IMG/VR virus record: IMGVR_UViG_3300028666_000032
Span: 1 to 64,000 of that record
Reading direction: 5' to 3' (one strand)
Source of the DNA: a virus
Length of the DNA stretch: 64,000 bases
The position numbers were made by a program, and so were the translations under genes. Of the stretch, positions 41,423 through 53,884 are shown piece after piece. Within the stretch, counting starts at the first letter, position 1. Each line of letters opens with the position of its first letter. Under the pieces are notes generated by a model that was not told the DNA's origin, searched no databases, and saw nothing but the letters and a program-made list of their open reading frames with translations.

Positions 41423-42085
41423 ATGCAGGGTAAACGAGGCCCCAAAAAGAAGCCATACATCCACAAAATCGCCGAAACAACGGTTAAGTGGAAAAAGCGC
41501 AAAGACGGCGAGCCGATGATGATCGGGTATGCTCGCGTCTCAATGAACGATCAAAGCAACCAGCGTCAAATAGATTCACTGGTCGAATATGGCGTAGCGC
41601 CAGAAGATATTTTCCAGGACAAACAGAGCGGTAAAACAATGGATAGGCCAGCGTGGCAAGCTTGTTTCCGCGATCTGCAAAAAGACGATTGGCTGGTGAT
41701 CTATTCTCTTGACCGGCTCGGTCGCAACCTTCGCGACCTCCTCGATATTGAGCAACAGCTTTACGAAAAAGGCATCAAACTGAAAGTTATCTGTCAGCCC
41801 ATTGATACCAGTAACGCGGGTGGACGGCATTTCTTTCACATGCTTGCGTCACAGGCTCAATGGGAACGTGAATGGAATTGGGAACGCACGATGCACGGCT
41901 TATCCAAAGCGCGTGATCGCGGAAGCATCGGCGGTCAGCCTTCGCCGTTCTCCGACAAGGAAATCCGCGCAGCATTGCGGAAAGCAAAAACCGTTAGTGG
42001 TGCGGCTAAGATTTTGAAATGCGCAAAGGTGACAATTCATCGGCGCATGAAGGAATGGGAAGCAGCGAAGGAGGCAGCAGCATGA
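41423..42085 (+). CDS. serine recombinase (resolvase/invertase type)
   Basis: A 220-residue recombinase. After a basic 31-residue extension comes the catalytic domain: I-G-Y-A-R-V-S with the nucleophilic Ser at about residue 38, L-D-R-L-G-R-N near residue 100, and the E-helix Q-W-E-R-E-W-N-W-E-R. The C-terminus has a helix-turn-helix (S-G-A-A-K-I-L-K-C-A-K-V-T-I-H-R-R). ATG 41423 is chosen because the open frame before it holds the promoter. It opens the run of tagged genes and could invert, resolve or integrate DNA. Confidence 0.85.
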   Translation: MQGKRGPKKKPYIHKIAETTVKWKKRKDGEPMMIGYARVSMNDQSNQRQIDSLVEYGVAPEDIFQDKQSGKTMDRPAWQACFRDLQKDDWLVIYSLDRLGRNLRDLLDIEQQLYEKGIKLKVICQPIDTSNAGGRHFFHMLASQAQWEREWNWERTMHGLSKARDRGSIGGQPSPFSDKEIRAALRKAKTVSGAAKILKCAKVTIHRRMKEWEAAKEAAA

Positions 42086-42264
42086 GCGACAAACCAGTTA
42101 CGACGAAAGCTCCGTGCGAAGGCGATTGGATAACTTCGCCACCCCACCAATTTGAGATCATAGACAAGATCGAGGAAGCGGGCTGGTTTGGATCGAAGAA
42201 AGTCCGCGTTATTTACAAATGCAAGGCTTGTGGTCGAGTGACCGAGAATGGCGTGAGACTATGA
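42082..42264 (+). CDS. tagged small protein with Cys pair
   Basis: Sixty residues starting M-S-D-K-P-V-T-T; it has C-K-A-C near the end, a possible metal site. Its ATG overlaps the recombinase stop (ATGA), so the array begins in the recombinase transcript. Confidence 0.65.
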   Translation: MSDKPVTTKAPCEGDWITSPPHQFEIIDKIEEAGWFGSKKVRVIYKCKACGRVTENGVRL

Positions 42265-42512
42265 AATCAGATCAGCCGCCCGTCTTAAAAAACAAGCATG
42301 GATCTTTCAGCATCGGCGACAAGGTTTCTTTTGATGTCGAAAACCAGATCAGTGGTGGCTATAGCTGGGACAGCCACGGAGAACTGCGCATGCGCAACGG
42401 CGAGTTGATTATAAAAACGAGACAGGGCGTCGTGACGATTGGCAAAGGTTACGATGCTTATATCGGCTCAATACGTCCGCAGGTAGCCAGTCCATACGAG
42501 AGGCCGCTGTGA
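42261..42512 (+). CDS. untagged small beta-rich protein
   Basis: An 83-residue protein with S-I-G-D-K-V-S-F and several short strands. No tag and no tag-only ORF upstream, so it is an exception. ATGA overlap with the previous gene. Confidence 0.65.
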   Translation: MKSDQPPVLKNKHGSFSIGDKVSFDVENQISGGYSWDSHGELRMRNGELIIKTRQGVVTIGKGYDAYIGSIRPQVASPYERPL

Positions 42513-42688
42513 GGGCGACATCGGACCTTCTTAAGAAAGCAGCCATCCAACTCGAATGGCATATCGAACGGTGCGAGAACGGCACCGAGGAGGAAGGATT
42601 TATTAGCCCGCAGGATGTTTATCCGATGGAGCGATTGGAAATGTCCAAAAGCGTTCTGGCGCAACTCAAGGAAGCTATAAATGGCTGA
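42509..42688 (+). CDS. untagged small helical protein
   Basis: A 59-residue protein with GTG start inside the previous stop (GTGA). Pattern L-L-K-K-A-A-I-Q-L-E-W-H-I-E-R. It overlaps the next, tagged gene by 8 bases. Confidence 0.6.
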   Translation: MRATSDLLKKAAIQLEWHIERCENGTEEEGFISPQDVYPMERLEMSKSVLAQLKEAING

Positions 42689-42881
42689 GCCACAAACGAC
42701 CGACTACGAGACGATCATGGCCGCGCTTTATTATCCCATGAGAGACGATGCAACGTGGGAGAAGATGCAGAAGAAGTGTCATCAGGCGATAGCGGCTTTT
42801 CAGCGTCTAGTCCCACCGCCAGTCAGTAATAAATACGTTGCCCTTGGATGTGAGCCTTTCGGTGTTTCGAATGACCGATAA
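42681..42881 (+). CDS. tagged small protein
   Basis: Sixty-six residues starting M-A-E-P-Q-T-T-D-Y-E-T (CCA CAA ACG ACC). Helical, ends V-S-N-D-R. No family recognised. Confidence 0.65.
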   Translation: MAEPQTTDYETIMAALYYPMRDDATWEKMQKKCHQAIAAFQRLVPPPVSNKYVALGCEPFGVSNDR

Positions 42882-42933
42882 ACCACGAAAGCAGACTAAC
42901 ACCGGCTCAGCCGGAGAAACTAGCTATGGGTGA
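42871..42933 (+). CDS. 20-codon leader ORF with degraded tag
   Basis: M-T-D-K-P-R-K-Q-T-N, then a Ser/Gly stretch. The K-P-x-x-Q-T pattern looks like an eroded tag. Its stop overlaps the GTG of the next gene, and its coding sequence contains the hairpin at 42902-42914. It may couple translation to the untagged gene that follows. Confidence 0.4.
   Translation: MTDKPRKQTNTGSAGETSYG
42902..42914 (+). promoter_or_regulatory. CCGGC-TCA-GCCGG hairpin before GGAGAAACTAG
   Basis: A 5-bp stem with a 3-base loop directly before GGAGAAACTAG and the next start. An equivalent CCGGC/GCCGG stem before the same GGAGAAACTAG occurs at 60992-61007. Confidence 0.5.
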
Positions 42934-43505
42934 GGATCTTGATTGCTTGTGAATGCAGCGGAATTGTAAGGGACGCTTTTATCCAGCGCGGCCATGACGC
43001 TACTTCGTGCGACCTGAAACCGACGCGCCGACTTGGCCCGCACTATCAGGGCGACGTTCGCGACATTCTGCACATGTCTTGGGACATGATGATCGCGCAC
43101 CCGGTCTGCAAGATCATGGCGAACAGCGGAGTTAGATGGTTGCATGAAAGACCAGAACGCTGGAAGCTTTTAGAAGAAGGTTGCGCGTTCTTTAAACTGT
43201 TTATCGACGCGGCTCATATCCCGAAGCGTTGCGTTGAAAACTCCATTATGCACGGCCACGCTAGAAAGTTGATCGGCAGAAAATGGGATCAGATCATTCA
43301 GCCCTGGTGGTTCGGAGCGCCATTTACTAAAGCAGCCGAGTTACATCTAATCGGCCTGCCGAAATTGCCGCAGGAAAGAACGAAGGATAGCTACGATCAT
43401 ATCGAACCGAAATGCTGGAAGATGGCACCGAGTGCCGACCGCGAAGAACTGCGCAGCAATACCGAACCCGAAGTTGCACGAGCCATGGCGGAGTATTGGG
43501 GATGA
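42930..43505 (+). CDS. methyltransferase-like phage protein
   Basis: A 191-residue protein of a common phage family with a Rossmann-like start: R-I-L-I-A-C-E-C-S-G-I-V-R-D-A-F, then S-C-D-L-K-P and M-I-A-H-P-V-C-K-I-M-A-N-S-G-V-R-W-L. Relatives have H-P-P-C at the active-site-like position; here it is H-P-V-C-K. It is distantly similar to cytosine methyltransferases, but activity is unproven. GTG start at 42930 within the previous stop. Confidence 0.7.
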   Translation: MRILIACECSGIVRDAFIQRGHDATSCDLKPTRRLGPHYQGDVRDILHMSWDMMIAHPVCKIMANSGVRWLHERPERWKLLEEGCAFFKLFIDAAHIPKRCVENSIMHGHARKLIGRKWDQIIQPWWFGAPFTKAAELHLIGLPKLPQERTKDSYDHIEPKCWKMAPSADREELRSNTEPEVARAMAEYWG

Positions 43506-43630
43506 AAAACGAACAGACACAAACGACGCCACCATGGGGGAAATGCCCACACTGCAAAACAAACATCCGCGTCAGGAACCGGAGGTTTTATTGCCTTAAG
43601 TGTGACAAAGATCTGGGAGAAGCCAAATGA
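43502..43630 (+). CDS. tagged zinc-ribbon protein
   Basis: Forty-two residues starting M-K-N-E-Q-T-Q-T-T-P; C-P-H-C and C-L-K-C form a compact zinc ribbon. ATGA overlap with both neighbours. Confidence 0.7.
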   Translation: MKNEQTQTTPPWGKCPHCKTNIRVRNRRFYCLKCDKDLGEAK

Positions 43631-43746
43631 ATAGAACGACGCCGGTTAGGGAATTTATGCAGTGGCTACTCCGCGAGCCATTTTGGATTTTCTACATTGC
43701 CGGTGTTGGCCTGCTTTTCCTAAACTTCGTGGGAGCATTCCGATGA
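43627..43746 (+). CDS. tagged 39-residue membrane protein
   Basis: Starts M-N-R-T-T-P; one hydrophobic helix (F-W-I-F-Y-I-A-G-V-G-L-L-F-L). The residue before T-T is Arg, a rare variant. Confidence 0.65.
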   Translation: MNRTTPVREFMQWLLREPFWIFYIAGVGLLFLNFVGAFR

Positions 43747-43907
43747 CATCACAAACGACACTTTCGCCGTCCGAAGAGGAAGCGTTACGCCTTTGGCAAA
43801 AACTGGCATCGGATAATTTGTTCGTGGCTGAGACGCACGACAAGCAACCCGTGAAATATTTCATCAAAGTCGTGTCCAAATGGCTGGAAGCGAGAGGATC
43901 GATATGA
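43743..43907 (+). CDS. tagged small helical protein
   Basis: Fifty-four residues starting M-T-S-Q-T-T-L. Acidic N-terminal helix, basic middle. ATGA overlaps on both sides. Confidence 0.65.
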   Translation: MTSQTTLSPSEEEALRLWQKLASDNLFVAETHDKQPVKYFIKVVSKWLEARGSI

Positions 43908-44170
43908 GCAACCCACAAACGACTGAACATGACAAAGAAGTCGGCGATGTTTTGGCTGATGCGCTCGCCGCGTTGACGAACGAAGCCATGCGCCATATCG
44001 CGAAAATCTCGAATGATAGAGTGGGCGTTATGCTCGCCGTGGCTACCCTATGCACTCACCGTTTCGAAATGGTTTATCGGACCGACTTTGCCGATGCGAT
44101 GCGTGACGCAAAAAAGAAGGACGAAGCGAAGCCCCCAACCGAATACTCCGAGGCTTTGGTGGAGCAATGA
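43904..44170 (+). CDS. tagged helical protein
   Basis: Eighty-eight residues starting M-S-N-P-Q-T-T-E (AAC CCA CAA ACG ACT). Ala-rich helices (D-V-L-A-D-A-L-A-A-L-T-N-E-A). GAGAGGA lies upstream of its ATG. Function unknown. Confidence 0.65.
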   Translation: MSNPQTTEHDKEVGDVLADALAALTNEAMRHIAKISNDRVGVMLAVATLCTHRFEMVYRTDFADAMRDAKKKDEAKPPTEYSEALVEQ

Positions 44171-44202
44171 GCAAAACAGATACCACGAGTGACGCAACGT
44201 GA
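44167..44202 (+). CDS. 11-codon tag-only leader ORF
   Basis: M-S-K-T-D-T-T-S-D-A-T then stop. The whole ORF is little more than the tag. Its TGA overlaps the GTG start of the next, untagged gene, so a ribosome ending here can restart there. Confidence 0.6.
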   Translation: MSKTDTTSDAT

Positions 44203-44789
44203 TTGCCGCGCTGTTTGTCATGCCTAACGGCGCATATTTTAATCTTCCCGATGTCGATCCGTGGGACGAAAAAAGGGATGCGCGGAAATATGACGGGCCG
44301 TATCCGGTTGTTGCTCACCCCCCATGTGCGCGGTGGTCGAGACTGGCAAAATTCTGTGAGGCGCGGCATGGACTAAAGGTTGGGGAGGATGGCGGTTGCT
44401 TCGCAGCTGCTCTAGCGGCGGTTCGTAAGTTCGGTGGCGTGATAGAGCATCCTGCGTTCTCTAAAGCGTGGGCATCGCATGGATTGCCTAGACCGCCGAC
44501 AAAGCATCACGGATGGACTGTCGGGTTAGATGGCGGGGCGTCCTGTTATATCGAGCAGGGAAGATATGGTCATGTAATGAAGAAGGCAACTTGGCTTTAC
44601 GCTTTTAGAGCTGAACTCCCTGAGCTCAAGTGGGGGTACACCCCGGACAGCGAAGGAAAGTTGGCTACCAAACGGGATTGGCGCGGCGGTATGGACAAAT
44701 GGAGAAACGCAACTGGATATAAAGTTGCTAATGCAACGCCACAAGAATTTAAGGAAGTTTTGATCGCAATGGCTAGGAGTGTAAAATGA
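44199..44789 (+). CDS. phage protein with H-P-P-C motif
   Basis: A 196-residue protein with V-V-A-H-P-P-C-A-R-W near residue 38, G-G-C-F-A-A-A-L-A-A-V-R-K-F-G-G-V-I-E-H-P near residue 70, a family seen in many phages and distantly like DNA methyltransferases. Second member of this class in the array after 42930. It is untagged, begins with GTG, and is preceded by a tag-only ORF. Confidence 0.7.
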   Translation: MIAALFVMPNGAYFNLPDVDPWDEKRDARKYDGPYPVVAHPPCARWSRLAKFCEARHGLKVGEDGGCFAAALAAVRKFGGVIEHPAFSKAWASHGLPRPPTKHHGWTVGLDGGASCYIEQGRYGHVMKKATWLYAFRAELPELKWGYTPDSEGKLATKRDWRGGMDKWRNATGYKVANATPQEFKEVLIAMARSVK

Positions 44790-44824
44790 AAGACACAACA
44801 CAAACGACCCGGATAAACACATGA
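44786..44824 (+). CDS. 12-codon tag-only leader ORF
   Basis: M-K-D-T-T-Q-T-T-R-I-N-T then stop; it even has two T-T pairs. ATGA overlaps both the previous gene and the next, untagged gene. Confidence 0.6.
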   Translation: MKDTTQTTRINT

Positions 44825-45126
44825 GGCGCGGATCATCGCAAGCAACCATCGATAGATCGCCCATCAGGACATTTTATACGGTCGGAGGGTTCTATAAACT
44901 ATACGACAATAACTTTGCATCGCAAGGTAAGACCAAATGTGACGTTTGCTGCCAGGAAGAATGGTCGGGAACTTTTTACCACAAAGAGAAATTCAATTGC
45001 TGCAACTCGCACGCTATCTCTGCCGAAAATATCCTCGCATCCGGAGCCACATGGCAAGACGCCCTACAACTATCACTTTGCAACGGAATTTTGATGGAGA
45101 TTAGCAAATGCATGAAGGCGGAATAG
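44821..45126 (+). CDS. untagged Cys-rich protein
   Basis: A 101-residue protein with a Cys cluster (K-C-D-V-C-C-Q-E-E and N-C-C-N-S-H), probably metal binding. It lacks the tag but its start overlaps the tag-only ORF's stop. Confidence 0.65.
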   Translation: MRRGSSQATIDRSPIRTFYTVGGFYKLYDNNFASQGKTKCDVCCQEEWSGTFYHKEKFNCCNSHAISAENILASGATWQDALQLSLCNGILMEISKCMKAE

Positions 45127-45371
45127 CTCCAATCACAGACCGTTTCAATCTTATGGATTTTACGGACTCACTAATCAATGACCTTAAGCTTCTGCGCGAA
45201 GGTGAAATATCAATCCACGAAGCGCACGCTCGCGCCAACCTAGCAAAGCAAGTCCTCAAGTCCGTTCACTACACGATTGTGGCTCAAAAGTTTATGATCG
45301 AGCAGGCGCAGTTGGCAGAGAAGCCGGTTCAAATTGCGAAGGGAAAAAAGAAATGTCCAAAGAAACAGTAA
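45108..45371 (+). CDS. untagged helical protein
   Basis: An 87-residue helical protein (D-S-L-I-N-D-L-K-L-L-R-E-G-E-I) with a Lys-rich end (A-K-G-K-K-K-C-P-K-K-Q). It overlaps the previous gene by 19 bases. Untagged; a start at ATG 45153 is possible. Confidence 0.6.
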   Translation: MHEGGIAPITDRFNLMDFTDSLINDLKLLREGEISIHEAHARANLAKQVLKSVHYTIVAQKFMIEQAQLAEKPVQIAKGKKKCPKKQ

Positions 45372-45481
45372 CGACCGACCTGCTCGACCGGTTCACAGCC
45401 TTTGTGATGGGGGTCCACTTATTGCTCGTTGCCCTAATCATCGGGGTGGCCATCTGGGAGGCAGCACATGGACGATTCTAA
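45353..45481 (+). CDS. tagged membrane protein
   Basis: Forty-two residues starting M-S-K-E-T-V-T-T-D; one transmembrane helix (H-L-L-L-V-A-L-I-I-G-V-A-I-W). Overlaps neighbours by 19 and 14 bases. Confidence 0.65.
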   Translation: MSKETVTTDLLDRFTAFVMGVHLLLVALIIGVAIWEAAHGRF

Positions 45482-45668
45482 AACCACGGTAGACAAAATC
45501 GACAAACTGCTTCGAGAAAGGGCACGCGAACTTCTGGATAGCACGCGCCTCGCAATCGAAATCGCCTTTCGCGATCCGAAGTATCAGCAGCTAGTTTGGA
45601 TGGCGATAGCCGAGACAGCAGAGAAATATGCCAGAGCAGCGGAAAGGGAAGCCAATGCCAAAATCTAA
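45468..45668 (+). CDS. tagged helical protein
   Basis: Sixty-six residues starting M-D-D-S-K-T-T-V (TCT AAA ACC ACG). Long amphipathic helix (L-L-R-E-R-A-R-E-L-L). No family recognised. Confidence 0.65.
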   Translation: MDDSKTTVDKIDKLLRERARELLDSTRLAIEIAFRDPKYQQLVWMAIAETAEKYARAAEREANAKI

Positions 45669-45708: not shown

Positions 45709-45746
45709 TTTTAGCTTTCTGGATAAAGGAGAGGTTCGATGTCTAA
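45690..45746 (+). CDS. 18-residue hydrophobic ORF
   Basis: M-F-F-G-L-L-I-L-A-F-W-I-K then a charged end. It could be a membrane micro-protein; its stop overlaps the next tagged start. Confidence 0.4.
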   Translation: MFFGLLILAFWIKERFDV

Positions 45747-45921
45747 ACCACAAACGACTGGACGTTCACCAACAACGAAGAAGATTGATCCGACTGTTGG
45801 CCGCGATAGCGTCATCGTTCGCCTTACGCTTCTAACTGGAGCATGTCGCCAGCCGCGTATCTCGAAGAAGCAGATCGAGGATAGTTTGCAACGCTACATC
45901 AAGGAGCTGTCCGATGGCTGA
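45739..45921 (+). CDS. tagged basic protein
   Basis: Sixty residues starting M-S-K-P-Q-T-T-G; AAGGAGAGG upstream is a strong ribosome site. Basic, with a possible helix-turn-helix end. Confidence 0.65.
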   Translation: MSKPQTTGRSPTTKKIDPTVGRDSVIVRLTLLTGACRQPRISKKQIEDSLQRYIKELSDG

Positions 45922-46135
45922 TCCACATACCACGAGCCGTGACATCGACGAAGCTTGCTACGGCGGCATTATGGACGACAAACCTAACACCACGCGACAC
46001 AGCCCCGACTTGTGGGACGAAGCCTACGAAACTGTCGTGACGCTTCGCGGTAGCAGTGATGTGCCAGGGTTCTATATCTGTGTGGAAACGGAATATCAGA
46101 AATTGTTGGAGGCGAGAGATGCCCAATCAAACTGA
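45914..46135 (+). CDS. doubly tagged protein
   Basis: Seventy-three residues with a tag at each of two in-frame starts: M-A-D-P-H-T-T at residue 1 and M-D-D-K-P-N-T-T at residue 20 (ATG 45971). The main body follows the second tag. It looks like a tag-only leader ORF whose stop was lost, fusing it to a gene that had its own tag. Confidence 0.65.
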   Translation: MADPHTTSRDIDEACYGGIMDDKPNTTRHSPDLWDEAYETVVTLRGSSDVPGFYICVETEYQKLLEARDAQSN

Positions 46136-46301
46136 AACGACTGCCAAGGCGCACGAGCTTGCAATGAGGATAAGCCACTTTTGCTGTTCGTCGATACGGC
46201 ACGATGAGACGATTTTGAAATCCGTCACTGAATTTATCCAAGAAGAATTGGATGCCGCTTATACGGATGGATGGAAGGCCGCTAATGGAGAAACGCGATG
46301 A
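46119..46301 (+). CDS. tagged helical protein
   Basis: Sixty residues starting M-P-N-Q-T-E-T-T-A. Contains H-F-C-C and a Trp-containing end (D-G-W-K-A-A). Function unknown. Confidence 0.65.
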   Translation: MPNQTETTAKAHELAMRISHFCCSSIRHDETILKSVTEFIQEELDAAYTDGWKAANGETR

Positions 46302-46330
46302 GTTCACAAACGACGAGGAGAAACCAATGA
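46298..46330 (+). CDS. 10-codon tag-only leader ORF
   Basis: M-S-S-Q-T-T-R-R-N-Q then stop. ATGA overlaps both the previous gene and the following untagged micro-ORF. Confidence 0.55.
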   Translation: MSSQTTRRNQ

Positions 46331-46407
46331 TCGGACATTTCTGTAAGGCGCTTCATAAGTTCATCTTCACCCGCTGGTCTAGCTGCGAGCATTGCCATGG
46401 TAAGTAA
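46327..46407 (+). CDS. untagged 26-residue ORF
   Basis: M-I-G-H-F-C-K-A-L, then S-C-E-H-C-H. Short, Cys/His-containing; starts in the stop of the tag-only ORF and overlaps the lipoprotein start. Confidence 0.45.
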   Translation: MIGHFCKALHKFIFTRWSSCEHCHGK

Positions 46408-46552
46408 GCCAGAAACCACAAGACCTCCAATATGGCTATGGTTGCCGATCACGCTGTTCCTTCTGCTGGGTGCGTCGGTGATTTTATCTGGCTGCTTTAT
46501 GTGTCCATCGATGGACGACAACTGCCCACTCTTGCGAGGCAACGGTGACTGA
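46397..46552 (+). CDS. tagged lipoprotein
   Basis: Fifty-one residues starting M-V-S-K-P-E-T-T-R-P. A hydrophobic segment (L-P-I-T-L-F-L-L-L-G-A-S-V-I) ends in a lipobox I-L-S-G-C. The mature part would be 19 residues with two more Cys. The tag lies ahead of the signal peptide, so it would be removed from the mature protein; this speaks against a role for the tag peptide in the final product. Confidence 0.6.
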   Translation: MVSKPETTRPPIWLWLPITLFLLLGASVILSGCFMCPSMDDNCPLLRGNGD

Positions 46553-46760
46553 TAATCCACAAACCACAAATTCTGATGACTGGCTCGCTGGCTATCATCA
46601 GGCGCTTGAAGATTCAGCAACGCTAGTCGAGACCCATCTAGTCTATCCGTATTGTGCCACGAAATTGCAGCCGATCACTAAGGGACGAGCAACTAAAGGC
46701 AACCAGCCACGCCACGTTTACGCAGAGGCAATAAGGGCAATGAAGGAGACGGGACTATGA
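46545..46760 (+). CDS. tagged protein
   Basis: Seventy-one residues, GTG start, V-T-D-N-P-Q-T-T-N. Pattern W-L-A-G-Y-H-Q-A-L-E-D-S-A-T-L-V is shared in style with the genes at 52336 and 53284. Confidence 0.65.
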   Translation: MTDNPQTTNSDDWLAGYHQALEDSATLVETHLVYPYCATKLQPITKGRATKGNQPRHVYAEAIRAMKETGL

Positions 46761-46792
46761 TCGATAAACCAGAAACCACGAGCTTCACATGA
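46757..46792 (+). CDS. 11-codon tag-only leader ORF
   Basis: M-I-D-K-P-E-T-T-S-F-T then stop. Both ends overlap neighbours by ATGA; the gene that follows has no tag. Confidence 0.6.
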   Translation: MIDKPETTSFT

Positions 46793-46998
46793 CGGACGAC
46801 AACATCATCAAGCTTCAAAATGTGAAAGAGGTTGTTGATCCTGCGTCTTGTGCGAGGAGCGGCAAAATTATGCTCCACTACAACATTGAGGATCACGACA
46901 CGGTTGAACTTGAGGGAAGCATCACGCTGGCGGAGTGCTGCTTTCTTTACATGAAGCTTGGTCAGTATTTGAACTCAGAACTTGGAGATGAGGAATGA
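46789..46998 (+). CDS. untagged protein behind a tag-only ORF
   Basis: Sixty-nine residues, beta and helical segments (K-I-M-L-H-Y-N-I-E; C-C-F-L-Y-M-K-L-G-Q-Y-L). Untagged, with its start inside the stop of the leader ORF. Confidence 0.65.
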   Translation: MTDDNIIKLQNVKEVVDPASCARSGKIMLHYNIEDHDTVELEGSITLAECCFLYMKLGQYLNSELGDEE

Positions 46999-47210
46999 CA
47001 CATACGACCGAGACATTTGAAATCCCCGGCCTACCCGGATTATGGCGGGAGATCGAGGCTCGGTATGATTATGAGAAAGACAAAAGCCGTTGCCCGAATT
47101 GCCACGGTATCGGAATCCCTTGGGCTGGATGGTTTAGTTGCGACACCGCCTGTCACTGCAAGGCCCTGGTGGAAGATGGGCGCGCCTTTGTTCCGGTGGT
47201 GGGGCCATGA
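46995..47210 (+). CDS. tagged Cys-rich protein
   Basis: Seventy-one residues starting M-T-H-T-T-E. C-P-N-C near residue 33 and C-D-T-A-C-H-C near residue 50 suggest zinc binding. Confidence 0.65.
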   Translation: MTHTTETFEIPGLPGLWREIEARYDYEKDKSRCPNCHGIGIPWAGWFSCDTACHCKALVEDGRAFVPVVGP

Positions 47211-47993: not shown

Positions 47994-48172
47994 GTAAACC
48001 CCAAACCACACCGCGCTGCCCACACTGTGGCTACACGAAGCAGGATGCAATAATTCACGGAGATCACTGGCTTTGCAAAGGCAGGCAAGACGCTCCTTGG
48101 GAAGTCGAAGCGGCATACCAGAACTTGCAACGCGCAGCCGTGAAAAGGAACCCATTCAATGGAGCAATCTGA
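47990..48172 (+). CDS. tagged zinc-finger-like protein
   Basis: Sixty residues starting M-S-K-P-Q-T-T-P-R-C-P-H-C-G-Y; with H-W-L-C-K later it can form a small zinc site. Confidence 0.65.
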   Translation: MSKPQTTPRCPHCGYTKQDAIIHGDHWLCKGRQDAPWEVEAAYQNLQRAAVKRNPFNGAI

Positions 48173-48377
48173 AACCACAGCCTGCGGCTACTGCGGCTGC
48201 ATCCACCAGACCAAATGTCCGATGGTGAAGGCTATCGAATATCATCAGGATGGCACAGTGAAGCGCGTCGAGTTTTATTCGGCGTCGGACTACATGCAAA
48301 AGGCCGTAGTCGTTCCGGCGCATCAACCGGCGATCACCGAGACAACTTGGGGCGAGCATTGGGGGAAAAATGGCTAA
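48159..48377 (+). CDS. tagged zinc-finger-like protein
   Basis: Seventy-two residues starting M-E-Q-S-E-T-T-A-C-G-Y-C-G-C, then T-K-C-P. A second T-E-T-T near residue 62 is probably chance. Confidence 0.65.
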   Translation: MEQSETTACGYCGCIHQTKCPMVKAIEYHQDGTVKRVEFYSASDYMQKAVVVPAHQPAITETTWGEHWGKNG

Positions 48378-48543
48378 TCCACAAACGACCTTTTTCAAAA
48401 TAAGAGATAAGGTGCGCGATGTTACTTTCTGGATTTTGCTGCCAGTAATTCTTCCGCTAGTTCTGGTTGGGTATACCTTTGGGTATCTTTATGGATATTT
48501 TCGAGGAGCTTTTATTTTGGGGAGTGACCCGCATGCCCAATAA
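48370..48543 (+). CDS. tagged membrane protein
   Basis: Fifty-seven residues starting M-A-N-P-Q-T-T-F; one or two hydrophobic stretches (F-W-I-L-L-P-V-I-L-P-L-V-L-V-G-Y). Overlaps neighbours by 8 and 11 bases. Confidence 0.65.
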   Translation: MANPQTTFFKIRDKVRDVTFWILLPVILPLVLVGYTFGYLYGYFRGAFILGSDPHAQ

Positions 48544-48865
48544 TCCACAAACGACTGACCTGATCAACAGGCTTCGCGGTCACTATCGCACGCCGATCAC
48601 CGACGGCCTTGGGCCAGCAGGCGGTGAGGAGCCGGACAACCCGCATGAGCACGTTCGGACATTTCCCGTGCCACCAATCCATAAAGAGGCTGCCGCCGAG
48701 ATCGAGCGACTGCGCAATGGCATCAAAAAGGTGCTGAATGAGGGAGTGCAGAAAACGGAAGGACCATACTCACCGAAGAACAATAAATGCAAACACGGCA
48801 GATACGGCTACGAAGGCTGCGACAATTGCACCGACGAATTTTTGGAGGAGTTGCTCAATGGATAA
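48533..48865 (+). CDS. tagged Cys-containing protein
   Basis: One hundred ten residues starting M-P-N-N-P-Q-T-T-D. Contains a helix A-A-A-E-I-E-R-L-R and a late Cys group (K-C-K-H-G, E-G-C-D-N-C). No family recognised. Confidence 0.65.
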   Translation: MPNNPQTTDLINRLRGHYRTPITDGLGPAGGEEPDNPHEHVRTFPVPPIHKEAAAEIERLRNGIKKVLNEGVQKTEGPYSPKNNKCKHGRYGYEGCDNCTDEFLEELLNG

Positions 48866-49040
48866 ATCAGAAACCACGGCCTCCCGCATCGAAGAAGCGG
48901 CGGAAAACCTTCTTAACGCTATTGAGGGCAAGACCAAGAGTGAAGCCGTGACCATCATCATTGGGTATTCTCGTAAGATTTATAGGGATGCTCGCGCGCA
49001 TGAACGGGAGGACTTGCATGGCATCGCCAACCAAAACTGA
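48858..49040 (+). CDS. tagged helical protein
   Basis: Sixty residues starting M-D-K-S-E-T-T-A-S. Acidic helix then basic middle. Overlaps neighbours by 8 and 23 bases. Confidence 0.65.
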   Translation: MDKSETTASRIEEAAENLLNAIEGKTKSEAVTIIIGYSRKIYRDARAHEREDLHGIANQN

Positions 49041-49236
49041 AACGACCAGAGAGGATCGTCATTACGCAACCATCGGTCACACATGGGCATACGTGCCACT
49101 GGATAACCAGCTCTATAACCCGTGGGCCAAAGAAGGGATTGAACCGCTCTATATAAGGATGGTCGGAGGCCCGAACGATGGGCGCTGGCTCGTATTTAAG
49201 GATCAGAGAGCTTATGACAATTGGGTGCTGGCATGA
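49018..49236 (+). CDS. tagged protein
   Basis: Seventy-two residues starting M-A-S-P-T-K-T-E-T-T-R, the longest distance between start and T-T seen (8 codons). Aromatic-rich, with G-G-P-N-D-G-R-W-L-V-F, a motif common in small phage proteins. Confidence 0.65.
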   Translation: MASPTKTETTREDRHYATIGHTWAYVPLDNQLYNPWAKEGIEPLYIRMVGGPNDGRWLVFKDQRAYDNWVLA

Positions 49237-49436
49237 GTGGGAAAACAGATACGACCTGGCAGACGATGGAAACCGCGCCGAAGGACGGAACGATGGTTCT
49301 GCTTTTCAAGCAATCGTCCGGCACAAAGGGTTCGGGATATTGGGATGAGCGCGAACAATTCTGGCGCATCGGCGGCATGTGTTATTTTAACGGTGCCTCT
49401 CATTGGGCTCCATACCCGGAGGTGCCAAATGCCTAA
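49233..49436 (+). CDS. tagged DUF551-like protein
   Basis: Sixty-seven residues starting M-S-G-K-T-D-T-T. The body follows the DUF551 pattern: W-Q-T-M-E-T-A-P-K-D-G-T-M-V-L-L-F and W-A-P-Y-P-E near the end. In relatives W-x-x-M is near the protein start, so the tag is an added prefix. Confidence 0.7.
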   Translation: MSGKTDTTWQTMETAPKDGTMVLLFKQSSGTKGSGYWDEREQFWRIGGMCYFNGASHWAPYPEVPNA

Positions 49437-49737
49437 ACCAGATACGACGCTTAACAACCAACCAAAGGAGAACACCATGAAGAAGATTGTTACCGAAGTT
49501 GAAGGCGAAGGATTGGTTAAGCTTCTCGGAGAAACCGTTACGCTGTTCTGCGCCTCATATATCTACACTGGCAAGCTTGTCGGCGTGAATGATAGCTGCG
49601 TCCTTCTCGATGACGCAAAAGTCGTTTACGAAACCGGCGCGTTTAACGAGAAGGAATGGAAAGACGCTCAAAAACTCCCCGGCTCCTGGTATATACAATT
49701 GGGAATGGTCGAGAGCTTCGGCATCTTGAAGGTGTAG
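49429..49737 (+). CDS. tagged protein with internal start
   Basis: The 102-residue ORF starts M-P-K-P-D-T-T-L, and 16 codons later an internal ATG (49477) with its own AAGGAG starts M-K-K-I-V-T-E-V-E-G, the likely core protein of 86 residues. The tag segment thus appears as an add-on fused in frame to a gene that can start on its own. Confidence 0.65.
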   Translation: MPKPDTTLNNQPKENTMKKIVTEVEGEGLVKLLGETVTLFCASYIYTGKLVGVNDSCVLLDDAKVVYETGAFNEKEWKDAQKLPGSWYIQLGMVESFGILKV

Positions 49738-49739
49738 AA

Positions 49740-49898
49740 ATGTACGCCATCAAAAAGAAAAAATATTGGTCGCGGTCGCGGTCGGGGTCGGGGTCGGGGT
49801 CGTGGTCGTGGTCGGGGTCGCGGTCGTGGTCGGGGTCGCGGTCGTGGTCGGGGTCGCGGTCGTGGTCGGGGTCGCGGTCGTGGTCGGGGTCGTTATGA
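49740..49898 (+). CDS. ORF in hexamer repeat
   Basis: Fifty-two codons: M-Y-A-I-K-K-K-K-Y-W, then Ser alternating with Arg, Gly and Trp, encoded by the hexamer repeat. It may be untranslated or a by-product of the repeat; untagged. Confidence 0.3.
   Translation: MYAIKKKKYWSRSRSGSGSGSWSWSGSRSWSGSRSWSGSRSWSGSRSWSGSL
49768..49893 (+). repeat. GGTCGN hexamer tandem repeat
   Basis: About 21 tandem copies of GGTCGN (N = C, G or T), partly ordered into an 18-bp unit of three hexamers repeated about four times. It ends two bases before a tagged start. Such tracts change copy number by slippage; hexamer changes keep frame. Confidence 0.85.
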
Positions 49899-50299
49899 AA
49901 AATCCACAAACCACACTTGACGACATCACGCTGACAAGTTTTATCGACGCGATCAAACTGGCTGTCGATGGTGGTCATAACAATATTGCCCCTTTGGGAA
50001 TGTCGGGCGCGAATATATACCTGCACCGGAAAGAGAGCCGTGCGCAGGAAGTGTCGATCCGGCTTTACTGTGGGGATGCAGAACTGTTGATTACGAACGA
50101 GAGCAAGGATTTTCTCTTTTATGGGCGCTATGACATTTCTCTTGGCGTCGATTTTGTGGCGAACGAATATTATAGAATCTTTTACCTGCTCAAAGGCAAA
50201 ATACCGAAAACGAAAGAAGACAGGGAGCCATTAAAGATTCAGGAAAATCCGGAATACTCAATCGGCTTTAAGATGTTGGATAAATATTATGGCCGATAA
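49895..50299 (+). CDS. tagged protein next to the hexamer repeat
   Basis: A 134-residue protein starting M-K-N-P-Q-T-T-L-D. Alpha-beta pattern (S-I-R-L-Y-C-G-D-A-E-L-L-I). The region upstream of its ATG is the repeat tract, so it has no normal ribosome site; GGTCG repeats could act in its place or its expression may be coupled. Confidence 0.65.
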   Translation: MKNPQTTLDDITLTSFIDAIKLAVDGGHNNIAPLGMSGANIYLHRKESRAQEVSIRLYCGDAELLITNESKDFLFYGRYDISLGVDFVANEYYRIFYLLKGKIPKTKEDREPLKIQENPEYSIGFKMLDKYYGR

Positions 50300-50477
50300 T
50301 CCACAAACGACCGCTTGCCGCGCCTGCATGATTATCTTTTGCGTGTTCGTCGCGCCTCTGGTCATGCCATTCATCGCGCTCAACCACCTGCGCCGCAATC
50401 TCGGTAGCGCTTTGGGCTACTGGTGGCTCGACATGCGGCAAGAGGTCAATTCGTGGAGGGACGCATGGCCGAAGTGA
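50289..50477 (+). CDS. tagged membrane protein
   Basis: Sixty-two residues starting M-A-D-N-P-Q-T-T-A-C-R-A-C; a hydrophobic helix follows (M-I-I-F-C-V-F-V-A-P-L-V-M-P-F-I-A-L). Confidence 0.65.
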   Translation: MADNPQTTACRACMIIFCVFVAPLVMPFIALNHLRRNLGSALGYWWLDMRQEVNSWRDAWPK

Positions 50478-50671
50478 AACCGCAAGTTAGGAAGCGCCCG
50501 ACAGGGGAGAAAGAAGTCACTCTTCGTTTTACCATTCATGGCAACATGCTTAGGTGCGACGACGCAGGAGAGATTAGCTGCAACAACTTGGCGGACGATG
50601 ACATGGCCCTTACTTTTGGGGAGACGCTTGCTGGGTATCTACAGGGGTATTTCTATGACTACAAAAACTGA
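50465..50671 (+). CDS. untagged small protein
   Basis: Sixty-eight residues, M-A-E-V-K-P-Q-V-R-K; K-P-Q-V could be a lost tag. Overlaps neighbours by 13 and 17 bases. Confidence 0.6.
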   Translation: MAEVKPQVRKRPTGEKEVTLRFTIHGNMLRCDDAGEISCNNLADDDMALTFGETLAGYLQGYFYDYKN

Positions 50672-50867
50672 AACCACGACCGTGAAGCCATTCACCGCCT
50701 TTGTAGTGGGAGTGTATTTTGCTTTGCTAACTGGAGCAGTTCTACAGACTGTTGGCCAAACGACTACGTGTAAACCGGAACCCATTACGATGTGGAATGC
50801 CGTTGAATATCTGACATGGGTATATGGCGGTGGATTTGCCGGATTTTGCATCGGGAGAAAACTATGA
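50655..50867 (+). CDS. tagged membrane protein
   Basis: Seventy residues starting M-T-T-K-T-E-T-T-T; two hydrophobic segments (F-V-V-G-V-Y-F-A-L-L-T-G-A-V-L and a C-terminal one). Confidence 0.65.
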   Translation: MTTKTETTTVKPFTAFVVGVYFALLTGAVLQTVGQTTTCKPEPITMWNAVEYLTWVYGGGFAGFCIGRKL

Positions 50868-51034
50868 CAACAGAAAAGACGACCGATTACGAACGCATCC
50901 TCCAAAGTGTGTTGGGGAAATATAACAATACTATCACAGCGGAAGATGGCAGCAAGAGGTTGGAACTCGGCGATTCCGTTTATCTTGAATTTGATTCCGA
51001 TGAAAACTATACGGGAGCTTATAGCTATGAATGA
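50864..51034 (+). CDS. tagged acidic protein
   Basis: Fifty-six residues starting M-T-T-E-K-T-T-D-Y. Acidic end (F-D-S-D-E-N-Y). ATGA overlap with the previous gene. Confidence 0.65.
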   Translation: MTTEKTTDYERILQSVLGKYNNTITAEDGSKRLELGDSVYLEFDSDENYTGAYSYE

Positions 51035-51194
51035 TCCGCATACCACTCTCCCTGCCGTTAATCCAGAATTATTGAAACTCATGCATCTGGCAAATGCGGT
51101 TTCATACACGAGGGCAGCCTATGAGTTCTCTCCTTACTCTAAAGAAGAGGCGCTGCGGCTGGCAAAGGAGGAAATGGATGCCTATAAACGATAA
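51027..51194 (+). CDS. tagged helical protein
   Basis: Fifty-five residues starting M-N-D-P-H-T-T-L-P. Helical (E-E-A-L-R-L-A-K-E-E-M). Overlaps neighbours by 8 and 17 bases. Confidence 0.65.
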   Translation: MNDPHTTLPAVNPELLKLMHLANAVSYTRAAYEFSPYSKEEALRLAKEEMDAYKR

Positions 51195-51414
51195 AACACA
51201 AACGACTGCCAAGCTTGATCTTCAGGCGAAGAAGCACGGTGCACGCTTCCGCACGCAAGATGGCAGGATCGCTACCCTGATCGCCTTCGACCGAAGATTG
51301 AAGCGTCCTTATATTTTTCGAGTTGGAGACGAGGTGTGGACACGACGCAGAGATGGAACGCACTGCGCCACATGCGACGGCACCGTTTACCCGGCGATTG
51401 TGAGGCAGCTATGA
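51178..51414 (+). CDS. tagged beta-rich protein
   Basis: Seventy-eight residues starting M-P-I-N-D-K-T-Q-T-T-A. Short strands and a C-A-T-C motif near residue 68. Confidence 0.65.
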   Translation: MPINDKTQTTAKLDLQAKKHGARFRTQDGRIATLIAFDRRLKRPYIFRVGDEVWTRRRDGTHCATCDGTVYPAIVRQL

Positions 51415-51536
51415 AACCAGAGACCACGAAACGTCTGCCCTCTTGGCGCTTTGGTATTTGCATGAAGCCCGGAAAGATCAACTGCATGCACAAGACTGGA
51501 AAGCCTTACTACTATCCGGTGAGCCATGACGACTGA
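51411..51536 (+). CDS. tagged 41-residue protein
   Basis: Starts M-K-P-E-T-T-K. Basic and aromatic (P-Y-Y-Y-P-V). It has two Cys. ATGA overlap with the previous gene. Confidence 0.6.
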   Translation: MKPETTKRLPSWRFGICMKPGKINCMHKTGKPYYYPVSHDD

Positions 51537-52083
51537 AGCAATCAGCAAAAAACCTAAACTCCTAGAGGCTGGGCACGCAGACAACTTCCAAACGCCGCCT
51601 TCAGCACTCGATTGCTTACTTCCCTATCTCAGGCGTGAGTGGCGGATATGGGAGCCAGCATGCGGAAAAGGAAACTTGGTTCGCGCATTTCACGACAACG
51701 GATTCCGAGTTACGGGCACCGATATAGATAGCGGAAGCGACTACGACTTCCTAAACATCCCACTCGGCAGCGACTTTTCGCTGATGTGCGATGCCATAAT
51801 CACGAACCCGCCATTTTCGGTCAAAGAGAAGTTTCTTTCGCGCTGCTATGACTGGCAAATGCCGTTCGCCCTGCTCATGCCAATCACAACCTTCGACAGC
51901 CGGGAACGCAGGAAGCTTTTCAGCCGCCATGGTGTTCAGATCATCCTACCAAATGGCCGCATCAACTTTGAAACGCCGAACGGCAAGGGATCGTCAAGCT
52001 GGTTTTATACAGCTTGGTTCACGCACGGGCTTAACCTTCCGAAACAGCTAAACTTTCACGGTCTTGAGATGGAGCTTGTATGA
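51526..52083 (+). CDS. N6-adenine methyltransferase-like protein
   Basis: A 185-residue methyltransferase: W-E-P-A-C-G-K-G-N-L-V near residue 41 (SAM-binding motif I) and I-I-T-N-P-P-F-S near residue 88 (motif IV, N-P-P-F of N6-adenine enzymes). It begins M-T-T-E-A, with T-T directly after Met. It might methylate phage or host DNA; small size suggests a minimal catalytic core without a target domain. Confidence 0.75.
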   Translation: MTTEAISKKPKLLEAGHADNFQTPPSALDCLLPYLRREWRIWEPACGKGNLVRAFHDNGFRVTGTDIDSGSDYDFLNIPLGSDFSLMCDAIITNPPFSVKEKFLSRCYDWQMPFALLMPITTFDSRERRKLFSRHGVQIILPNGRINFETPNGKGSSSWFYTAWFTHGLNLPKQLNFHGLEMELV

Positions 52084-52343
52084 AGGAAACACAAACTACG
52101 ATTGAAAAGCTGAAAGAGATGCGCGAAGAAATGGTGCTAAAGGCCATTTCTTTGAAGCAGATTATCTCTCAACTTGAGATCGCGAATGAAATGGCCGAAT
52201 CATTAGAAAAGTGCCGGGCGCAATTTGCCTTCTATACGGCCAACCATTTGTCGGCAGGAAAGGCGGATAGGGAAAAGACAAACTCTGAATTTGCCGAATT
52301 GTGCCTGTCGGTTTTAATAAAGTGGGAGAAAATAAATGACTGA
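52080..52343 (+). CDS. tagged coiled-coil protein
   Basis: Eighty-seven residues starting M-K-E-T-Q-T-T-I. Mostly one long coiled coil (K-L-K-E-M-R-E-E-M). The first Thr codon is ACT, a rare form. Confidence 0.65.
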   Translation: MKETQTTIEKLKEMREEMVLKAISLKQIISQLEIANEMAESLEKCRAQFAFYTANHLSAGKADREKTNSEFAELCLSVLIKWEKIND

Positions 52344-52506
52344 AACTACTCTCGACGACGATCCGGTTCGCACGATGGCATACAAACGTGGCTTCAATAA
52401 CGGGCTTGAGGAAGCGGCAAAGATAGTTGATGCCGTAGGCTACTCGGGTGGTCTGAAGAACTGGCAAGCGGCCCAGATGATCCGAGACATGAAGGTCGCG
52501 CCATGA
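52336..52506 (+). CDS. tagged protein
   Basis: Fifty-six residues starting M-T-E-T-T-L-D-D-D (GAA ACT ACT). The pattern Y-K-R-G-F-N-N-G-L-E-E-A-A-K-I-V is a common small-phage-protein motif, also seen in broken form at 53284-53402. Confidence 0.65.
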   Translation: MTETTLDDDPVRTMAYKRGFNNGLEEAAKIVDAVGYSGGLKNWQAAQMIRDMKVAP

Positions 52507-52808
52507 AACCAGATACCACAAAGGTTCAAGTTGAGGGGCCGGAATTGAATGAATATGCCGAGCAAACCCTCATGCAGTTCATCGAGGAGTTGACGGAACT
52601 GTTGGACAAGATTCCAGCGGCCCATAGAGATCAGGCGACAATCAGAGGTTCTGGGGAATACACCACTTACACCTACGTTGAATACGACCGCCCCGAGACT
52701 GACGAAGAAAAAGACAATCGGTTGGAGAGAGAAGCCAGGATGCGAACCGAGAATGAAAAACGGGATAGGGAGCAGCTTGCGAAGCTGAAGGCAAGATATG
52801 AAGCCTGA
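52503..52808 (+). CDS. tagged acidic coiled-coil protein
   Basis: One hundred one residues starting M-K-P-D-T-T-K. Highly charged helical end (E-R-E-A-R-M-R-T-E-N-E-K-R-D-R-E-Q). ATGA overlap upstream. Confidence 0.65.
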   Translation: MKPDTTKVQVEGPELNEYAEQTLMQFIEELTELLDKIPAAHRDQATIRGSGEYTTYTYVEYDRPETDEEKDNRLEREARMRTENEKRDREQLAKLKARYEA

Positions 52809-52920
52809 ATCTAAAACGACGAAATGGTGGCAAGCAGCCATCGGCTATACTTCGGCAATCCTTCTATTTTGGAAACCGGAGATTTGGCGAGCGTTCATGA
52901 AGGGATTTCGCAATGGGTGA
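52798..52920 (+). CDS. tagged small membrane-associated protein
   Basis: Forty residues starting M-K-P-E-S-K-T-T-K-W-W. Hydrophobic middle (A-I-L-L-F-W). Confidence 0.6.
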   Translation: MKPESKTTKWWQAAIGYTSAILLFWKPEIWRAFMKGFRNG

Positions 52921-53023
52921 TACTGGCGCACTGGTGGCAGCGTTCCTAGCCGTATTCGTGTTTGGTGCTTTTTGCGGGATCGCAATTTTTGCCGCTGGAT
53001 CAAAGTGGGGAAAGCATGACTGA
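52913..53023 (+). CDS. untagged membrane protein
   Basis: Thirty-six residues with one transmembrane helix (A-A-F-L-A-V-F-V-F-G-A-F-C-G-I-A-I-F). Untagged and not preceded by a tag-only ORF. Confidence 0.6.
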   Translation: MGDTGALVAAFLAVFVFGAFCGIAIFAAGSKWGKHD

Positions 53024-53294
53024 CGAATTACAAACGACAATCTCAGAAAGGTTTTGGCGTTGGCTCTACAAGTTTTGTGACCGGCAGATCGCAAATATTT
53101 ATCTCTATCGTCAGCATGTGAATTTGAAATGCCCGAACTGCAATCAATGGTCACACAATTACGAATATCGCTTCATGTCATCGGACGGAGATTTCGACAC
53201 CCTGAGATGTGGATGTTGCGGGCAAGAAACTGAATGGCGATGCGAAGGCGGATTTTGGTTCACGAAGAAGGAGTTTCTAAAACATGCAGTCTAA
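53016..53294 (+). CDS. tagged zinc-binding protein
   Basis: Ninety-two residues starting M-T-D-E-L-Q-T-T-I. C-P-N-C and C-G-C-C pairs, 35 residues apart, and W-R-C-E suggest a zinc ribbon. Confidence 0.65.
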   Translation: MTDELQTTISERFWRWLYKFCDRQIANIYLYRQHVNLKCPNCNQWSHNYEYRFMSSDGDFDTLRCGCCGQETEWRCEGGFWFTKKEFLKHAV

Positions 53295-53402
53295 GGATTT
53301 ACAAACGACGACCAGAACAGCTTCGGATCGGGATACGATCAAGGATACCTTGCTGGGCTGAAAGCCGTTCGGGATTTCATGAGCGGAGATGTCGATGCCT
53401 AA
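53284..53402 (+). pseudogene. frameshifted tagged gene
   Basis: ATG 53284 reads M-Q-S-K-D-L-Q-T-T-T, then a poor frame to a stop at 53361. Another frame from about 53305 reads Y-D-Q-G-Y-L-A-G-L-K-A-V-R-D-F-M, closely like the gene at 52336, to stop 53402. An indel in or next to the tag explains both. Confidence 0.6.
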
Positions 53403-53427
53403 TTCAGATACCACGGCTAGGGCGTAA
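53395..53427 (+). CDS. 10-codon tag-only leader ORF
   Basis: M-P-N-S-D-T-T-A-R-A then stop (GAT ACC ACG). Its TAA overlaps the next, untagged start (TAATG). Confidence 0.55.
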   Translation: MPNSDTTARA

Positions 53428-53600
53428 TGGCAATTCTCAGAAAGCTTACTGAGGTTGAGAGGGAAGCTAAGATCGCAAGCTTGAAGCGTGAGCGTCATTA
53501 TTTCTTGCAACGCTATGAGTTATCAAAAGAGAGGTGGCAGTTGATGGCTGCGCTTTCGGTTGCAATCGAGATTTTTCATTGGAGGTTCCATGCCCGATAA
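53427..53600 (+). CDS. untagged protein behind a tag-only ORF
   Basis: Fifty-seven residues, charged helix (E-V-E-R-E-A-K-I-A-S-L-K-R-E-R) with aromatic end. Untagged; start overlaps the leader's stop. Confidence 0.6.
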   Translation: MAILRKLTEVEREAKIASLKRERHYFLQRYELSKERWQLMAALSVAIEIFHWRFHAR

Positions 53601-53823
53601 AACGATAACCACGAACGTAGTCGGCTTTAAGCCAAAAGAAAAAACACATTACGTTAAAATCGCTCGTAATGGAGAAAGGTTCTGGCTGCGAGCGTTGCCC
53701 GATGGAATGAGCGGCACGAAATATGGGAAGGTTGATAACCATCTCATTGAGGCGCACCCATATAAATACGGGGACGTAATAGAATACAAACAGGATGAGG
53801 TATTAGATGAACAGCGAACCTAA
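53590..53823 (+). CDS. tagged beta-rich protein
   Basis: Seventy-seven residues starting M-P-D-K-T-I-T-T-N. Beta pattern (H-Y-V-K-I-A-R-N-G-E-R-F-W). GGAGG upstream. Confidence 0.65.
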   Translation: MPDKTITTNVVGFKPKEKTHYVKIARNGERFWLRALPDGMSGTKYGKVDNHLIEAHPYKYGDVIEYKQDEVLDEQRT

Positions 53824-53884
53824 AACCACCACCATTAGCATCGAGAACGCACATCCCTCGGCCCGTCCACTTTCGTGTGCATAA
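53807..53884 (+). pseudogene. truncated tagged gene at the cassette edge
   Basis: M-N-S-E-P-K-T-T-T-I-S-I-E-N-A then 10 more codons. It overlaps the previous gene by 17 bases as the array genes do, but stops where a different kind of sequence begins. Probably the N-terminal stump of a tagged gene cut by insertion of the downstream cassette. Confidence 0.5.

Follow-up and report, generated by a model that had tools for sequence, protein, structure and literature searches.

The start-tag array and its tagged open reading frames

The window analyzed here, a stretch of 64,000 nucleotides (positions 1 to 64,000) of the virus record IMGVR_UViG_3300028666_000032, is part of a 69,878-bp record. The late genes (terminase, portal, capsid) occupy the minus strand of the window's left part. 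Genes for a DnaB-like helicase and a Sak4-like annealing protein lie between them and the region of interest, and from 42.1 to 53.9 kb the plus strand is densely packed with small open reading frames (ORFs) arranged head-to-tail. Most of these share a short element just after the start codon, here called the start tag, that encodes two consecutive threonines (T-T). A sequence-only reading had counted 47 small genes with such a tag at 42082-53884. The array was recovered at exactly these positions, but the count became 46 tagged ORFs plus a nested in-frame tag at 45971, and two further tags were found outside the interval, at 57393 and 57644. Most tagged ORFs are indeed small genes, but five have only 10-12 codons and two have 25. 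The list was obtained by collecting the ORFs with T-T near the start first and by then running a frame-blind DNA pattern search, in which each extra match was resolved. The gene calls are computational, and the records used throughout are metagenomic, several of them being fragments. The array and its tagged ORFs are listed below (+, plus strand; G020 and G026 are other tag-bearing phages, see below).

42082..53884 (+) start-tag array, head-to-tail small ORFs, most tagged
42082..42264 (+) tagged ORF, MSDKPVTT
42681..42881 (+) tagged ORF, MAEPQTT
43502..43630 (+) tagged ORF, MKNEQTQTT
43627..43746 (+) tagged ORF, MNRTT, weaker match
43743..43907 (+) tagged ORF, MTSQTT
43904..44170 (+) tagged ORF, MSNPQTT
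45353..45481 (+) tagged ORF, MSKETVTT
45468..45668 (+) tagged ORF, MDDSKTT
45739..45921 (+) tagged ORF, MSKPQTT
45914..46135 (+) tagged ORF, MADPHTT; second in-frame tagged start, MDDKPNTT, at 45971
46119..46301 (+) tagged ORF, MPNQTETT
46397..46552 (+) tagged ORF, MVSKPETT
46545..46760 (+) tagged ORF, GTG start, MTDNPQTT
46995..47210 (+) tagged ORF, MTHTT
47207..47353 (+) tagged ORF, MTTKTT
47343..47606 (+) tagged ORF, MKTDPHTT
47599..47796 (+) tagged ORF, MSDSQTT
47793..47993 (+) tagged ORF, MTTETT
47990..48172 (+) tagged ORF, MSKPQTT, zinc ribbon
48159..48377 (+) tagged ORF, MEQSETT
48370..48543 (+) tagged ORF, MANPQTT, membrane protein
48533..48865 (+) tagged ORF, MPNNPQTT
48858..49040 (+) tagged ORF, MDKSETT
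49018..49236 (+) tagged ORF, MASPTKTETT
49233..49436 (+) tagged ORF, MSGKTDTT; homologue in G026 tagged MAEQSVTT
49429..49737 (+) tag ORF MPKPDTTLNNQPKENT fused in frame before MKKIVTEVE...
49895..50299 (+) tagged ORF, MKNPQTT
50289..50477 (+) tagged ORF, MADNPQTT
50655..50867 (+) tagged ORF, MTTKTETT
50864..51034 (+) tagged ORF, MTTEKTT
51027..51194 (+) tagged ORF, MNDPHTT
51178..51414 (+) tagged ORF, MPINDKTQTT
51411..51536 (+) tagged ORF, MKPETT
52080..52343 (+) tagged ORF, MKETQTT
52336..52506 (+) tagged ORF, MTETT
52503..52808 (+) tagged ORF, MKPDTT
52798..52920 (+) tagged ORF, MKPESKTT
53016..53294 (+) tagged ORF, MTDELQTT
53284..53361 (+) tagged short ORF (25 codons), MQSKDLQTT
53590..53823 (+) tagged ORF, MPDKTITT; homologue in G020 tagged MTKTT
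57393..57647 (+) tagged ORF, GTG start, MSKPDSQTT, outside the reported interval
57644..58015 (+) tagged ORF, MNNPQTT, Lar-like restriction alleviation domain, outside the reported interval

The array is real and far above chance. When the region 42.0-54.4 kb was tiled with genes without regard to the tag, 52 genes resulted, 37 of which contained T-T within residues 3-11. When the residues inside each protein were permuted 2000 times, such genes numbered 1.98 on average and never more than 8, which excludes that composition or start-context bias produces the motif. Further into the same 52 genes T-T occurred once in residues 12-20 and once in residues 21-29. At the DNA level the pattern CNNANACSAC had 46 matches in the window, almost all on the plus strand of the array, versus 11.6 +/- 3.1 in shuffled sequence, and the more specific CCACAAACSAC was observed 9 times versus 0.04 expected from shuffles. 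Finally, tag-like starts numbered 35 in 12 kb of array and 0 on the opposite strand, and amounted to 0.25-0.30 per 10 kb in control contigs.

Codon pattern and reading frame of the tag

In the window array the tag takes the form RAW-NCW-SAW-ACS-ACN and follows a good Shine-Dalgarno (SD) sequence, with the first threonine codon (T1) 3-9 codons past the start codon; the variable distance noted in the sequence-only reading thus holds. A broader consensus, RAW-NCA-SAA-ACS-ACG in frame, was obtained from nine phage records, which together supplied 104 TT-bearing starts; a handful of these starts are probably chance occurrences. The original P-x-T-T description is correct as to the shared T-T, but proline is only one of three residues (P, S or T, encoded by NCW) that mostly occupy the second codon before T-T (codon -2). 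Codon -1 specifies Q, V, E, K, H, P, D, I and others and mostly ends in A. Such variability of the amino acid before T-T does not fit a pure peptide constraint, whereas the conserved positions include wobble bases: CAA and CAG occur in the tag in a ratio of 40:1 (background 82:78), valine is encoded by GTA in 14 of 15 cases (background 32/280), proline by CCA in 28 of 32, and T1 is ACG or ACC in 96 of 104 (background 140/253). The tag is therefore better described as a set of in-frame nucleotides than as P-x-T-T. By this codon pattern the T-T of the methyltransferase-like ORF at 51526 (ATG ACG ACT), previously counted as tagged, deviates and is probably due to chance; the label DUF551-like, given to another array protein, found no Pfam support at E<0.01.

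The tag is also locked to the reading frame. Among the core matches near SD-bearing ATGs, 67 of 73 were in the frame of the start codon (p=1.7e-25), and the other two frames held 2 and 4, which is near chance. Coding does not bar these frames, because the motif holds no stop in them. With the tag codons in place, the start region is slightly less structured than with synonymous ones (mean +0.47 kcal/mol, p=0.004).

Tagged minigenes and the untagged genes that overlap them

The frame-blind search revealed five tagged ORFs of only 10-12 codons in the window, here called minigenes, each of which overlaps the start of a downstream gene without tag by GTGA, ATGA or TAATG. These are listed below with two related short ORFs; minigene peptides are complete up to the stop.

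42871..42933 (+) leader ORF MTDKPRKQTN..., decayed tag; GTGA overlap with the gene at 42930
44167..44202 (+) tagged minigene MSKTDTTSDAT; overlaps untagged gene 44199-44789 by GTGA
44199..44789 (+) untagged gene (phrog_12600), coupled to tagged minigene
44786..44824 (+) tagged minigene MKDTTQTTRINT; overlaps untagged gene 44821-45126 by ATGA
44821..45126 (+) untagged gene, coupled to tagged minigene
46298..46330 (+) tagged minigene MSSQTTRRNQ; ATGA overlap with the 26-codon CxxC ORF at 46327
46327..46407 (+) untagged small ORF (26 codons, CxxC), coupled to tagged minigene
46757..46792 (+) tagged minigene MIDKPETTSFT; overlaps untagged gene 46789-46998 by ATGA
46789..46998 (+) untagged gene, coupled to tagged minigene
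53395..53427 (+) tagged minigene MPNSDTTARA; overlaps untagged gene 53427-53600 by TAATG
53427..53600 (+) untagged gene, coupled to tagged minigene
53807..53884 (+) tagged short ORF (25 codons), MNSEPKTT; TAATG overlap with the next ORF

Altogether, eight tagged ORFs of 8-14 codons with an exact stop-start overlap were found in four phages, five in the phage of the window (G000) and one each in G009 (MKTETTTGQS), G019 (MPEPKTQTTKGEQP) and G026 (MTETTSKP). The gene after the G009 minigene has a T-T, but its first codon, ACA, misfits the tag. Of all tagged ORFs of up to 30 codons, 9 of 13 showed the exact overlap. The minigenes stop 2-6 codons past the tag and the protein that follows is untagged; since they feed untagged genes, the tag serves the start site and not the following protein. 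The minigenes thus argue for a cis-acting translation-start element, and against a peptide tag on the mature protein.

Distribution of the tag among phages and hosts

Pattern scans of the virus collection identified further arrays in G009, G011, G018 (near-identical to G023), G019, G020, G021, G022 and G026; in G026 about 24 tags are spread over both strands. A single tag led to each of these loci, so that the remaining tags there are unselected. On the basis of shared proteins the tag-bearing phages constitute at least seven lineages: of its 54 larger proteins G000 has one to three in common with any other tag phage, and kinship is restricted to G009, G022 and, distantly, G020. Named phages gave no DNA match to the phage of the window, and its protein relatives among them are only distant. 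That the tag would be a trait of the window phage's own lineage is rejected, as its terminase relatives G001, G003 and G004 lack arrays in the stretches read and unrelated phages possess them.

A scan of bacterial genomes recovered a single array. It belongs to a prophage that adjoins host genes on contig JABDAH010000030.1, part of an alphaproteobacterial metagenome-assembled genome (MAG). The prophage-host junction (L197:8566-13391) holds, after the array, genes for a cystathionine gamma-synthase, a cysteine synthase, a thioredoxin and an FTR1-like permease, all named by eye, and on this basis the host is alphaproteobacterial. The prophage is the only tag phage with a known host. Within the MAG the tag clusters are confined to the prophage contig, which rejects the possibility that the tag is a general host feature, and 385 sampled alphaproteobacterial genomes indicated no array besides G027.

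Gain and displacement of tags in homologous genes

Comparison of homologues shows how tags come and go. The orthologues MPSESETTNDTEKM of G018 and MTDSKTTYETERL of G026 have near-identical bodies and both kept T-T, but the two wobbles and most flanks have changed (SETTNDTEK versus SKTTYETER). In a second family, with leaders of equal length, the tag occupies codons 6-7 in G018 and codons 8-9 in the array copy of G020, and is absent from the G020 copy outside the array. Such an untagged homologue outside the G020 array, on the reverse strand of L064 at ~7887, is 82% identical to a tagged array gene (MTDTSTMPQANAEMIEGF versus MSDPQTTPQANAEMIEGF). Tags have also been placed in front of existing genes. 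The MKKIVTEVE gene of the window retains its own SD behind the fused tag ORF, and its 88% identical homologue in G022 is untagged and starts at MKKIV; similarly, in a DUF6745 protein of G019, MTQTTKI precedes the original methionine (MTQTTKI-MKLTKKQEARF). Nested double tags were seen in two ORFs, at 45914/45971 in the window and at 1820/1892 in G019. The orthologue shifts and the prefixed tags imply that tags are gained by substitution and by prefixing, in frame. Untagged homologues thus exist, as a check proposed in the sequence-only reading had envisaged, but they lie outside arrays or in phages that lack one. Common descent alone as the source of the frame lock is weakened by the second family described above, whose equally long leaders differ in the codons that the tag occupies or lack it, although the alignment of such short, divergent leaders is uncertain.

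Neighbouring genes and other features of the window

41423..42085 (+) serine recombinase (PF00239), directly upstream of the array

In G000, G009 and the prophage, which share almost nothing besides it, the array is immediately preceded by a serine recombinase that is 68-75% identical between phages; the relatives in front of the other two arrays are 68-72% identical to the recombinase of the window. The scans found this recombinase clade nowhere besides these three array positions. A role in cassette turnover is possible, but the recombinase is not needed for the tag because most other tag phages lack it. A truncated second copy (46% identical over residues 127-208) is present at 55338-55586 in the window, upstream of the two tagged genes that begin at 57393 and 57644.

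Ahead of the tagged start at 49895, the intergenic gap contains a six-base tandem repeat (GGTCGG-like; 49768-49892) of 20.8 copies, or 6.9 copies of an 18-base unit, which reads in open frames as long Ser-Arg/Ser-Gly or Asp-Pro-Asp-His repeats. Four ORFs, at 4469-5158, 11486-12007, 18733-19263 and 61238-61768, look by eye like free-standing homing-type endonucleases (GIY-YIG or HNH) and are scattered among the structural genes.

Interpretation of the tag

Of the readings offered at the outset, a cis element at the level of translation (enhancer or operator) is favoured and a peptide signal on the mature protein is disfavoured. The reading we put first, though it falls a little short of probable, is that the tag acts as a frame-locked enhancer of, or licence for, ribosome entry and early elongation; its effect, the sign of that effect and the ribosomal mechanism we infer from sequence. 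According to this model the tag would act in cis as a translation-start element for accessory phage genes, and its reading would take place in frame, within codons 3-11 of any ORF that is entered at an internal SD of a long polycistronic messenger RNA (mRNA). It would raise or license both de novo initiation and ribosome movement across the first codons, on the one hand via A/C-rich and little-structured mRNA and on the other via the codons or the nascent chain of NCA-NNA-ACS-ACG, and the latter effect would explain why the tag has to be in frame. Untagged genes would be reached by translational coupling, over an ATGA, GTGA or TAATG overlap, from a tagged minigene or a tagged neighbour. Beyond this, it is conceivable, though we hold it with some doubt, that unrelated phages independently acquired a codon-level start licence for whole accessory arrays, a translated and frame-locked mRNA signal that would cause ribosomes to enter and clear the tagged starts, with the minigenes as ribosome-loading leaders for untagged genes; a factor of the host or phage, common to these systems, may recognise such a licence.

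Several observations weigh against a translation enhancer. A pure initiation enhancer needs no frame, the structural effect of the tag codons is small, and the strict T-T and S-type wobble show a specificity for which a generic CA-rich enhancer would have no need. Furthermore, structural genes, for which the need for translation is highest, carry no tag, and some array genes have neither tag nor minigene (e.g. 45108, 50465 and 51526). Given that the frame lock and the narrow consensus exceed what a generic enhancer demands, a specific reader, be it a protein, a ribosome-dependent nuclease or a nascent-chain effect, is a serious rival.

In its main form this rival holds that the tag is an RNA operator or target, through which a trans-acting RNA-binding protein or a ribosome-dependent, and hence in-frame, endoribonuclease switches the accessory genes jointly. 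We consider it rather unlikely, yet it accounts for much: the wobble positions are constrained at the nucleotide level within a specific consensus of 10-12 nt, the site lies inside or at the edge of the ribosome footprint, the tag is confined to accessory genes, a tag on a minigene would also control the coupled gene, and a nuclease that reads A-site codons would explain the frame lock. RegA and RegB provide a precedent (PMC3014915). Nevertheless, no trans-acting protein is common to all tag phages, an ordinary operator needs no frame, codon -1 varies at two positions, and CsrA had no match in the tag-bearing records, nor had the RegA family, in a search without positive control.

A role for the tag as a peptide signal of the finished protein, in targeting, modification, degradation or packaging, is improbable. 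The tag is always in frame, T-T is invariant as amino acids and [DNKE]-[PST]-x-T-T would make a plausible short N-terminal motif, but the residue before T-T is highly variable, the wobble constraint goes beyond what a peptide needs, and the minigenes end soon after the tag and are followed by a protein that carries none. It is on account of the minigenes and the wobble conservation that this reading was rejected as the principal one. Equally hard to credit is the proposal that the tag is the joint of exchangeable gene cassettes, where the serine recombinase or Sak4 short-homology annealing would shuffle genes and the frame lock would keep the fusions in frame. It draws on the recombinase clade seen in the scans only upstream of the array in three otherwise unrelated phages, on the turnover of array content between the related G009 and G022, on the genes apparently fused behind tags and on the nested double tags. 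However, the tag is non-palindromic and variable at two of three positions of codon -1, the blocks common to copies comprise only about 14 nt, most tag phages lack the recombinase, and tags shift place in orthologues without indels, so that they arise by substitution. An anti-tag small RNA was rejected as well, considering the few opposite-strand matches to the motif and the lack of an Rfam family. Chance or a general composition bias at start codons has virtually no probability left: early codons of bacteria are often A-rich, but the tag-blind permutation control rejects such a bias, and the shuffle controls, the scarcity of tag-like starts in control contigs and the S wobble in T1, which opposes an A/T bias, point the same way.

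Comparison with known systems

The closest known case is that of the Start-Associated Sequences (SAS) and Extended SAS of the cluster K mycobacteriophages (PMC3203893). The SAS is a fixed asymmetric 13-mer located 3-7 bp upstream of the start, overlapping the ribosome-binding site (RBS), and is suspected to have a role in translation initiation (PMC3203893). Both systems involve a short asymmetric repeat in one orientation at the starts of many unrelated non-structural phage genes, a feature that the tagged genes display. Unlike the SAS, the tag is translated, in frame and degenerate, marks tens of genes as well as minigenes, and is found across phage lineages that are unrelated; moreover, it is positioned 3-9 codons downstream of the start and not a few nucleotides upstream on the RBS. 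A search with the 13-bp SAS consensus GGGATAGGAGCCC yielded 10 matches with up to 3 mismatches versus 15 expected by chance. The tag would be comparable in its working to a start-associated translation element, yet it falls outside the SAS family.

The RegA protein of phage T4 acts on about 30 mRNAs of early genes, a regulon defined by the sequence at the translation start (PMC3014915), and has in common with the tag that one set of phage genes is marked at that site. RegA sites, however, are A+U-rich and overlap the AUG or lie just 5' of it (PMC3014915), whereas the tag is A/C-rich, downstream and in frame. RegA (PF01818) had no match in 10 tag-bearing records, which is uninformative because the control genomes gave none either. 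CsrA likewise had no match in these records, with three controls matching, and the tag lacks GGA; Rfam covariance models gave no match at the gathering threshold in the region 41-59 kb.

Precedents for the favoured reading are found among enhancers of enteric bacteria, which also lie near the start, and in the effects of early codons. Downstream CA repeats are reported to enhance translation in E. coli (Martin-Farmer and Janssen 1999, as cited in PMC9031893 and PMC3879156), with or without a leader (same work, as cited in PMC9031893), and ACA motifs near the SD enhance initiation (PMC3879156). These resemble the tag as A/C-rich sequences near the start, but have no specific in-frame consensus, no array-wide repetition and no tagged minigenes. 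The early-elongation gate at codons 3-5, where nucleotide and amino-acid sequence jointly set the output (PMC6920384), shares with the tag the short window after the start; it favours Lys/Asn-Tyr/Ile (PMC6920384), whereas the tag is Thr-Thr, extends up to codons 9-11 and is tied to phage arrays.

A search of the open-access literature retrieved no description of a translated, in-frame start tag. Together with the minigene leaders, the tag points to a previously undescribed signal for starting translation. The selection of starts in bacteria is usually described in terms of the SD, the start codon and local structure. To these the tag adds natural evidence for a strong and specific downstream element, repeatedly selected in unrelated phages and read in frame. 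The sequence-only reading had missed the minigenes, the nucleotide constraint and the tag's presence in unrelated phages. The tag can be transplanted to any gene or onto a minigene, and it offers a direct test of the control of initiation or early elongation by downstream sequence. It can serve as a marker for real small phage genes and possibly as a transferable expression part. Should the tag be read by a trans-acting factor, the accessory phage genes that carry it would form a post-transcriptional regulon.

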